A DNA stretch of 32,271 bases from a virus. Below are positions 17,567-18,777 of the stretch, piece after piece (position 1 is the stretch's first letter; every line of letters begins with the position of its first letter). The notes under the pieces are model-generated. The model was not told the origin of the DNA. It made no database searches and was given only the letters and a program-made list of their open reading frames with translations. Position numbers and translations under genes: made by a program. The stretch lies in the IMG/VR virus record IMGVR_UViG_3300032246_001091, positions 1-32,271 of that record, one strand, 5' to 3'.

Positions 17567-17663
17567 AGAAGTAGGTTTTGCCTTTGACATCATGGATTCT
17601 CTACCCACATTTCGTGGAATCAAATACTGGTATATTTTAACAAAAAGATACTTTACCCGTTGA
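17520..17663 (+). CDS. Small overlapping gene, unknown
   Basis: This 47-residue frame, MTHKDTLNKTYGNIPKEVGF then FDIMDSLPTFRGIKYWYILTK, starts at ATG 17520 (GGAAAG upstream) in the +1 frame relative to sprT and overlaps its end by 47 bases. The composition is protein-like (aromatic and basic C-terminus, no low complexity), and the frame ends exactly where the next -35 box begins: the TGA overlaps TTGACA. No function is recognised. Confidence 0.5.
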   Translation: MTHKDTLNKTYGNIPKEVGFAFDIMDSLPTFRGIKYWYILTKRYFTR

Positions 17664-17688
17664 CAAAAAAATAAAATAGTGTTATAGT
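17660..17688 (+). promoter_or_regulatory. Sigma70-type promoter
   Basis: TTGACA (17660-17665), a 17-base spacer, TATAGT (17683-17688). The expected start of about 17695-17696 is the A of ATG 17696. It is the likely promoter for the 41-codon gene and the tandem RNAs downstream. Confidence 0.8.
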
Positions 17689-17695
17689 ATTACAT

Positions 17696-17821
17696 ATGAA
17701 AGAAAAGGCAAATACATCTCCAACTCCTTCTTGGGGTAGAATGTTGACTAAAAAAGAATTATTAGATTTACTTGCCAGAATTGAAGCAAAAGGTAAGGCA
17801 AGAAAAGATAAAGAAAAGTAA
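17696..17821 (+). CDS. Small Lys-rich protein, possibly leaderless
   Basis: This 41-residue frame, MKEKANTSPTPSWGRMLTKK then ELLDLLARIEAKGKARKDKEK, has a Ser/Pro-Thr linker followed by an amphipathic, strongly basic helix. It begins exactly at the expected start point of the promoter 17660-17688, with no room for a ribosome binding site, so translation would be leaderless. The stop TAA is 3 bases before the first structured RNA. No function is recognised. Confidence 0.5.
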   Translation: MKEKANTSPTPSWGRMLTKKELLDLLARIEAKGKARKDKEK

Positions 17822-17824
17822 TAT

Positions 17825-17894
17825 GCGGCCGGGGTATAGAACCAGAGTAGGTGTCCAATCTACTCACTTAGTGCAAATCTAAGCCACCGCTCCA
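17825..17894 (+). ncRNA. Glycine-tRNA-like RNA, element 1
   Basis: A 70-base tRNA-like fold. The acceptor arms 17825-17831 and 17884-17890 pair at 5 of 7 positions (1-4 and 7; C-A and C-C mismatches at 5 and 6). The anticodon stem 17845-17851/17859-17865 has a 7-base loop reading TCC at anticodon positions (17854-17856). The T-arm stem is CTTAG/CTAAG with loop TGCAAAT. Discriminator T and encoded CCA (17891-17894) follow. G1:C72, C2:G71, G3:C70, C35, C36 and U73 are the known bacterial glycine identity set. The D-arm is shortened, position 33 is G not U, and T55 is G. It is either a degenerate tRNA-Gly(TCC) or a non-canonical glycine-accepting RNA. Confidence 0.5.
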
Positions 17895-17901
17895 GTTTTA
17901 T

Positions 17902-17968
17902 GCGGAGTGTAATAGTACGATTTAAGACACCCTCTTAAATTATCTGAGCATAGCAGAACTCCGCTCCA
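17902..17968 (+). ncRNA. Glycine-tRNA-like RNA, element 2
   Basis: A 67-base tRNA-like fold, 7 bases after element 1. The acceptor GCGGAGT (17902-17908) / ACTCCGC (17958-17964) is perfect. A mini D-arm GTA-ATAG-TAC follows. The stem ATTTAAG/CTTAAAT (17920-17926, 17934-17940) is perfect with loop ACACCCT, reading ACC at anticodon positions. The T-arm TCTG/CAGA has only 4 pairs and a non-canonical loop AGCATAG. Discriminator T and encoded CCA (17965-17968) follow, then a T7 run. Position 33 is C, and G18G19 and the TTC of the T-loop are missing. The glycine identity positions are again present. The intact stems argue against simple decay, but function is unproven. Confidence 0.45.
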
Positions 17969-18066
17969 TCAATTTTTTTGATTAAGCTCATTAAAATATA
18001 TCATAAAGTAAATAACACAATTTTATTGATTTGAGTAATATATAAGTTTTTAACTATGGAGTAAAT

Positions 18067-18534
18067 ATGTCTATTACAATTAAAAACCTTGAGAGTGCAT
18101 TGGCTGGCGAATCAATGGCTCACATCAAATATCGTTATTTTGCCAAAATGGCTCGTGATGAAGGCTTTGAAAGTATTGCAAAGCATTTTGAACATACAGC
18201 AGACCAAGAAATTCTCCATGCATGGGGACACCTTGAGTTATTAATTGGTAAACCATCTACTAAAGAATGTTTAGAAAAAGCCATTGAGGGTGAAACATAC
18301 GAGTTCACTACGATGTATCCAAAAATGCAATCAGATGCAGCCTTAGAAGGCAATCAAGAAGCAGAACGTGAAGCTGCACATCAAATTGCTGAGTCACAAA
18401 CTCATGCAGAAGAATTTAGAGCAATTCTTGCAAAAGCAGAAAAACGATTTACAGCTTTAAAGAAAGTTGAAGAACGCCACGCAAATGCTTATCAATTAAA
18501 ATTAGATGAACTCTTACAAGTGGAGCCAAGATAA
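18067..18534 (+). CDS. Rubrerythrin-type diiron protein, no rubredoxin domain
   Basis: This 155-residue ferritin-like four-helix protein shows 'ALAGESMAHIKYRYFAKMA' (Glu15), 'FEHTADQEILHAWGHLELL' (E48-x-x-H51), and 'EGETYEFTTMYPKM' (Glu76/Glu79). Rubrerythrins reduce hydrogen peroxide. In the last helix the usual ExxH reads E-S-Q-T-H (109-113), so the glutamate is one residue further away than expected. The protein contains no CxxC and ends without the rubredoxin domain normally fused to it. That domain is encoded by the next gene, sharing one base (TAATG). GGAG precedes ATG 18067. Confidence 0.85.
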   Translation: MSITIKNLESALAGESMAHIKYRYFAKMARDEGFESIAKHFEHTADQEILHAWGHLELLIGKPSTKECLEKAIEGETYEFTTMYPKMQSDAALEGNQEAEREAAHQIAESQTHAEEFRAILAKAEKRFTALKKVEERHANAYQLKLDELLQVEPR

Positions 18535-18699: not shown

Positions 18700-18777
18700 A
18701 GCGGGGTAGCTCAGTCCGGTGGAGCGCTGGACTCATAATCCAGAGGCCGTGCGGTTCGAATCCCACCCCCGCAACCA
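18700..18777 (+). tRNA. tRNA-Met (CAT)
   Basis: The acceptor GCGGGG/CCCCGC, T8-A9, D-stem GCTC/GAGC, anticodon stem CTGGA/TCCAG with loop CTCATAA (CAT at 18734-18736), T-loop TTCGAAT and encoded CCA are present. Taking T8-A9 as reference, position 1 is A18700 opposite A at position 72, a mismatch at the 1-72 pair. The T-stem pairs only if one C is bulged out (GTG-C-GG with CCCAC). CAT could also be a tRNA-Ile2 needing lysidine, but the arms look more like elongator Met. The start could be called at 18701. Confidence 0.9.

Follow-up and report, generated by a model that had tools for sequence, protein, structure and literature searches.

Compact tRNA-Gly-like RNAs of T4-like phages keep the bacterial glycine identity set and depart from ordinary decoding positions

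The staphylococcal non-proteinogenic tRNA-Gly have lost the GG at positions 18-19 and carry UU or CU there (PMC4052509), and tRNA-Pyl has a D-loop of 4-5 nt, no G18G19 and a long anticodon stem, yet it decodes (PMC7609411). Among phages, tRNAs with altered anticodon loops are proposed as a means against tRNA nucleases (PMC10264068). The glycine identity set in bacteria consists of U73, G1-C72, C2-G71, G3-C70, C35 and C36, and the TacT toxin reads two of the same positions, U73 and G71 (PMC9976931). Gly-tRNA is the target of most of the GNAT toxins tested (PMC9177977), while FaRel2 relies on a purine-5/pyrimidine-68 determinant (PMC11559606).

Here we describe two compact tRNA-Gly-like RNAs, designated E1 and E2, in a 32,271-base virus record from a T4-like phage, the whole of which we refer to as the window. 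Its DNA polymerase matched thousands of T4-like records, none of them at 60% identity or more, and the closest cultured relative of this polymerase is that of a cyanophage (49.6% identity). The original prediction placed two tRNA-sized folds of 70 and 67 nt, separated by a 7-nt spacer, in a 245-base gene-free gap behind a strong promoter. A check of the sequence bore out the lengths, the spacer and the coordinates, as well as the GCGG...CCGC-T-CCA ends, ATAG D-arms and long anticodon-type stems of both elements, with TCC (E1) and ACC (E2) at positions 34-36 and G33 and C33, respectively. The promoter and the 245-base gap also stood; the promoter is followed first by a 41-aa reading frame, and the gap runs from the end of this frame to the rubrerythrin gene. 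The features are as follows.

17660..17688, + strand: sigma-70-type promoter (TTGACA, 17 nt, TATAGT), 11 of 12 consensus matches, with TG preceding the second hexamer
17696..17821, + strand: basic reading frame of 41 aa, transcribed together with E1 and lying before it; similar to the small basic protein that is often next to such RNAs
17825..17894, + strand: E1, compact tRNA-Gly-like RNA, 70 nt, class I loop UGUCCAA (cmsearch 96.1 bits, folding, covariation)
17825..17831, + strand: E1 acceptor 5' strand, partner 17884-17890; 6:67 non-standard in 22 of 22 family members
17833..17843, + strand: E1 D-arm, 3 bp, loop AUAGA
17845..17865, + strand: E1 anticodon-type arm, 7 bp plus the 32:38 pair; loop UGUCCAA at 17852-17858 with G33, UCC at 17854-17856
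17867..17883, + strand: E1 T-arm, 5 bp, loop UGCAAAU (G55); both-side changes in 3 of 5 pairs
17884..17894, + strand: E1 acceptor 3' strand, U73, encoded CCA
17902..17968, + strand: E2, compact tRNA-Gly-like RNA, 67 nt, class II loop (cmsearch 93.4 bits, folding, covariation)
17902..17908, + strand: E2 acceptor 5' strand, partner 17958-17964; 33 of 42 relatives lack a 7:66 pair
17909..17918, + strand: E2 D-arm GURAUAGYAC, 3 bp; R:Y covaries (A-U 24, G-C 18)
17919..17941, + strand: E2 anticodon-type arm with an invariant G-U at its base, both-side changes in 6 of 9 pairs; loop 17927-17933 with ACC at 17929-17931 and C37
17943..17957, + strand: E2 T-arm, 4 bp, loop AGCAUAG (G55)
17958..17968, + strand: E2 acceptor 3' strand, U73, encoded CCA
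18067-18534: rubrerythrin gene, downstream of E1 and E2
at 18700: ordinary tRNA-Met, after the rubrerythrin gene (ARAGORN)

The 41-aa frame had no convincing Pfam or PHROG match. It belongs with other small basic phage proteins (MLTKNGKPRLGPLN...) to a family that often adjoins the RNAs (also at L172, L179, L211 and other loci), and the idea of a fixed RNA-protein pair was rejected because distant homologues occur without the RNA. A short conserved palindrome, ATCAATTTTTTTGAT, is located at window positions 17968-17983, immediately 3' of the last RNA gene; it is also found in locus L032, with an imperfect copy in L065.

Ordinary tRNA-Gly (UCC) has the same GCGG...CCGC acceptor, U73, CCA and C35C36 as E1 and E2, and its loop UUUCCAA differs from the E1 loop at position 33 only. 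The compact RNAs are nevertheless 67-70 nt long where ordinary tRNA-Gly has 74-75, with a 3-bp D-arm bearing a loop of 4-5 nt, an anticodon stem of 7-9 bp and a variable region of 1 nt, and they carry an A18/G55 elbow, G33 or C37, and a broken 6:67 or 7:66 pair. Much of this architecture is shared with tRNA-Pyl, which has a 0-1 nt gap between acceptor and D-stem, a D-loop of 4-5 nt, a long anticodon stem, a tiny variable region and neither G18G19 nor TPsiC (PMC7609411), but tRNA-Pyl combines G73 with CUA where the compact RNAs combine U73 with UCC or ACC, and the compact anticodon stem is longer still. The four-arm folds reach z scores of −2.4 for E1 (3 of 200 dinucleotide shuffles as good) and −3.9 for E2 (0 of 200), and the reverse strands of both fold less well than the forward strands. 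Of the 22 E1 family members, 21 have a C.C mismatch at 6:67 and one has U.C, and the C5.A68 mismatch in the acceptor stem is found only in the window's copy. The E2 loop, ACACCCU in the window, is AUACCCU in most relatives.

The first relatives came from loci fetched through the rubrerythrin protein, which held copies with compensatory substitutions, and IMG/VR was scanned with patterns for E1 and E2 that contained no acceptor-stem letters. We counted distinct sequences rather than matches, since IMG/VR samples similar phages repeatedly; the records are mostly fragments. With duplicates removed, the E1 family comprises 22 distinct sequences of 70 nt and the E2 family 43 of 67-68 nt, both from uncultured T4-like phages. 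In the E1 alignment (n = 22), 95.3% of pair cells hold standard pairs and 32 cells are changed on both sides, against 9.7 in shuffles (0 of 500 as high) and 0-2 in slid controls; in the E2 alignment (n = 42, one insertion-bearing sequence excluded), 96.4% of pair cells are standard and 93 are changed on both sides, against 28.7 in shuffles (0 of 500 reaching this number) and 2-20 in slid controls, with double changes at 11 pairs. The slid controls correct in part for relatedness and the shuffle controls do not. Compensatory changes are found in all four arms of both families, so the conserved pairing that was originally proposed as a check is present in each. G-U oppositions outnumber A-C oppositions by 29:1 in E1 and 103:1 in E2, an excess that fixes the transcribed RNA strand. 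A conserved peptide in E2 was considered and rejected because early stops differ among members, and kissing between E1 and E2 through complementary loops was dropped because several long records carry one element only.

A covariance model of either element also recovers the other, along with intermediate forms and, at about 30-37 bits, ordinary phage tRNA-Gly, and a D-/T-loop pattern picks out at least 119 stretches; in total, the superfamily holds at least 112 distinct compact RNAs. Tandem pairs are present, and loci L370, L372 and L383 join a UGUCCAA-type to a CCC-type loop, as the window does. G1-C72, C2-G71, G3-C70 and U73 are found in 112 of 112 compact RNAs, a figure that is partly imposed by the patterns. 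With the acceptor-free patterns, GCGG, CCGC and U73 are present in every true relative, both acceptor strands appearing in 38 E1 and 60 E2 interior matches and neither in 17 and 3 unrelated matches. C35C36 is kept in essentially all of the 112, a few loops being placed uncertainly by the parser. The complete bacterial glycine identity set, as first read from the two elements, is confirmed in both and is conserved while the stems elsewhere covary.

The decoding positions, on the other hand, are altered as predicted: E1 has G33 and E2 has C33 with C37, whereas all 57 distinct tRNA-Gly of the ordinary type in the loci of the compact RNAs, taken as a control, have U33, A37 and A38. The earlier statement that position 33 is G or C is typical of the E1 family, in which G33 is invariant, but U33 predominates among E2 relatives; over the 112 compact RNAs, this position is U in 55, G in 46 and C in 11. 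C37 is present in 58 of 112 and is invariant in the E2 family, and G never occurs at position 34, only U, A or C. The loop has seven bases as drawn, but 32:38 is Watson-Crick-capable in 105 of 112 (A-U 53, U-A 43, C-G 9, with GU uncounted), so the anticodon-type loop may be reduced to five bases. Of the two positions 6:67 and 7:66, just one is non-Watson-Crick in 96 of 112 compact RNAs, and never both, while both are paired in 54 of the 57 ordinary tRNA-Gly. Every T-stem pair is kept in all 69 members with the E1-type T-arm, four of the five via several pair types. Staphylococcal non-proteinogenic tRNA-Gly are marked by T-stem base pairs that are weak for EF-Tu. The 69 G55-type members have no G49-U65 and no G51-C63; ordinary tRNA-Gly of these phages also lack G49-U65, and only 16 of the 63 sequences tallied have G51-C63.

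Loss of G18G19, originally ascribed to element 2, holds for E2 and applies to E1 as well. In the compact RNAs, G18G19 and TPsiC are missing and an AG D-loop of 4-5 bases is combined with an xGCRA or AGCAWAG T-loop. Among full-size phage tRNAs, U55 is accompanied by GG in the D-loop in 612 canonical cases, and all 27 with G55 have AG there (26 tallied and one, a tRNA-Gly in L389, put aside by the parser); the combination of G55 with GG occurs in zero tRNAs, and four staphylococcal genes carry UU or CU. The G55 types include tRNA-Met, Gly, Val, Ala, Trp and Tyr (for example L065 3743-3817, L104, L202 and L389). From these sequence correlations, we infer that the compact RNAs probably keep the contact between D-loop and T-loop (A18.G55, G19-C56) and thus an L shape. 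In several phage tRNAs with U56, position 19 seems to be A, which would preserve the 19:56 pair. Full-size G55 tRNA-Gly genes also appear in what look like stand-alone units of promoter, tRNA and T-run hairpin (L364 682-756, L378 261-335, L396 3381-3455, L427), and blastn of two full-size G55 tRNA-Gly against 50,697 phage records was empty.

Of 77 distinct sequences upstream of an element, 60 contain a sigma-70 promoter no more than 60 nt away (9% in shuffles). The −10 box ends 8-9 nt from G1 in 53 of the 60, which places the start of the RNA almost at the transcription start. The 3' neighbour is most often the gene for the small basic protein (29 of 61 for E1, 29 of 90 for E2); others are tRNA-Gly or a further such element (16 for E1, 19 for E2), GroES-like genes and other genes. 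The same upstream gene recurs in 107 of 145 loci. The genes near the elements are ordinary T4-like genes, with no recognisable anti-defence genes among them. An ordinary tRNA-Gly lies in the fetched stretch of 126 of 310 loci, a few of these being the full-size G55 genes themselves. Ordinary tRNA-Gly genes at the site of the elements had been named as an observation that would speak against the prediction; those found adjoin the elements and do not replace them.

ARAGORN left E1 and E2 uncalled, and Rfam gave no convincing family on either, whether at gathering scores or with the tRNA model run at E up to 10 under lax filters. Across three whole carrier records, the Rfam tRNA model missed the elements and found the ordinary tRNAs, one of them the adjoining tRNA-Gly. 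In blastn against 50,697 phage records, the gap region and E1 were unmatched and E2 had only chance matches of 18 nt, which leaves the elements absent from cultured phages, and the E2 pattern gave two chance matches only in 84,980 genomes, so that E2 is absent from the cellular genomes scanned. With respect to Rfam 15, ARAGORN, INPHARED and open-access papers, the RNA family is previously uncatalogued. Its carriers are uncultured freshwater viruses of bacteria.

The same phage contigs hold other RNA genes of interest. Permuted tmRNA genes occur near the rubrerythrin gene in freshwater phages (L013 581-966, L014 1680-2042, L015 1801-2204, L016 1619-2045, L049 1935-2351 and L058 1880-2349), tRNA genes with a CUA anticodon, like those of amber suppressors, are found at L055 2844-2920 and L059 2313-2389, and 92-nt tRNA-Ile(UAU) calls of odd geometry recur in related phages (L002 5901-5992, with similar calls in L003, L019, L021, L022, L026-L028 and L039).

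The reading that we favour, and consider moderately probable, is that E1 and E2 are compact phage RNAs derived from tRNA-Gly that are charged with glycine, do not decode and act outside translation, most likely as decoys. The sigma-70 promoter would drive their transcription along with the neighbouring small genes, and the RNAs would end in their encoded CCA. The host glycyl-tRNA synthetase would add glycine to them, and we regard this charging as quite likely because every bacterial glycine identity element is kept. The ribosome would use them poorly or not at all, which is probable because both the decoding loop (G33 or C37, with 32:38 paired) and the acceptor/T-stem junction are changed, although the U33 of about half of the superfamily counts against this. 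The coexistence with ordinary tRNA-Gly in 126 of 310 loci indicates that these loci do not carry the compact RNAs just as the phage's tRNA-Gly for decoding. E1 and E2 would then act either as free glycyl-RNA or through a tRNA-Gly acceptor surface.

As decoys during infection, they would soak up host factors acting on glycyl-tRNA or on its acceptor stem, the clearest known example being the Gly-tRNA-specific GNAT toxins. What such a toxin's decoy would require is precisely charging and an acceptor stem without ribosomal consumption, and U73 and G71, both read by TacT, are invariant in the compact RNAs. A decoy for a FaRel2-type toxin fits less well, since most members lack the purine-5/pyrimidine-68 determinant, 79 of 112 having U5-A68. 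No recognisable anti-defence genes lie nearby and no host toxin is tied to the RNAs, both of which count against the decoy role, and taken on its own we offer that role as a possibility only. Extending it to a widespread, undescribed class of phage RNAs, glycylated by the host, unable to decode and serving as decoys or sponges for defences acting on glycyl-tRNA, is a step we take with slightly greater reserve.

If E1 and E2 were instead unusual working tRNAs for glycine codons, compact like tRNA-Pyl and able to evade host nucleases that attack normal tRNA-Gly, their kept L-shape lengths (D plus anticodon stack of about 11 bp, acceptor plus T of 11-12 bp) and the U33 of most E2 relatives would be expected, and because tRNA-Pyl decodes with an equally compact core (PMC7609411), compactness by itself is no argument against translation; a stronger one is the change at positions 33 and 37. 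The defence-evading phage tRNAs proposed to counter tRNA nucleases with altered anticodon loops (PMC10264068) are likewise phage-encoded, have a sigma-70 promoter and lie in or near tRNA clusters. In addition, no ordinary tRNA-Gly was matched with the E1 model in several long records carrying E1 only, where E1 might replace it. However, defence-evading tRNAs replace decoding tRNAs, whereas the compact RNAs are mostly without decoding features and are often adjoined by a normal tRNA-Gly(UCC), and the invariant G33 of E1 and C37 of E2 stand against the U33 and A37 of every ordinary tRNA-Gly in the control. A position 34 that is never G and a loop that may shrink to five bases through 32:38 also weigh against decoding, and we judge this explanation unlikely.

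Less likely again, though the chief alternative to a decoy among uses outside translation, is that the RNAs donate glycine to a tRNA-dependent enzyme off the ribosome, like the staphylococcal cell-wall tRNA-Gly. The likeness originally suggested is partial: glycine identity, loss of G18G19 (PMC4052509), G55, a paired 32:38 and, in some members, C37 are common to both, and the CUUCCCG loop of the staphylococcal cell-wall tRNA-Gly is identical in six compact phage RNAs, but the staphylococcal RNA is a full-size cloverleaf that ARAGORN recognises and that has Fem enzymes as partners, with a different size and D-loop. FemAB (PF02388) scored above the cut-off in 0 of 31 carrier records, a count that covers the Fem family on the phage side only. 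The elbow is AG at 18-19 in the compact RNAs and UU or CU in the staphylococcal ones, and G55, which five other phage tRNA types (Met, Val, Ala, Trp and Tyr) also have, is thus no cell-wall signature; homology with the staphylococcal cell-wall tRNA-Gly was rejected on these two grounds. A Staphylococcus locus, L409 12302-12643 (− strand), carries four tRNA-Gly of the non-proteinogenic type with CUUCCCG loops beside a prophage.

A 5' leader or processing structure acting in cis on the downstream gene would account for elements that often start 8-9 nt past the −10 box and stop 17-24 nt short of a start codon, which belongs most often to the small basic protein in the proportions given above, but many elements precede tRNA-Gly, another element, GroES-like or other genes, more distant relatives of the small protein are without an element, and glycine identity and an encoded CCA are unneeded by cis structures, all of which makes this improbable. 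Decay of tRNA-Gly genes, the alternative originally set beside glycine charging, might explain some non-canonical positions, the acceptor-stem mismatches and the C5.A68 of window E1, but it is ruled out by the compensatory changes in both families, with 95-96% of pair cells kept, double-change counts that no shuffle reached, invariant loops and conservation over scores of contigs.

The E1 and E2 families represent RNAs that current tRNA finders and Rfam overlook and that many uncultured freshwater phages carry. Since they keep the identity set and drop decoding features, they offer a natural test of what charging requires as opposed to decoding, and phage tRNAs, with their correlated A18/G55 elbow, depart in a second, directly testable way from a rule that is near-universal among tRNAs. 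If the compact RNAs are charged but not decoded, then phages use aminoacylated RNAs outside translation. If the decoy role is true, it would go some way towards explaining why glycyl-tRNA is the chosen target of so many bacterial toxins, and RNA mimicry of aminoacyl-tRNA would be an anti-defence strategy of these phages.
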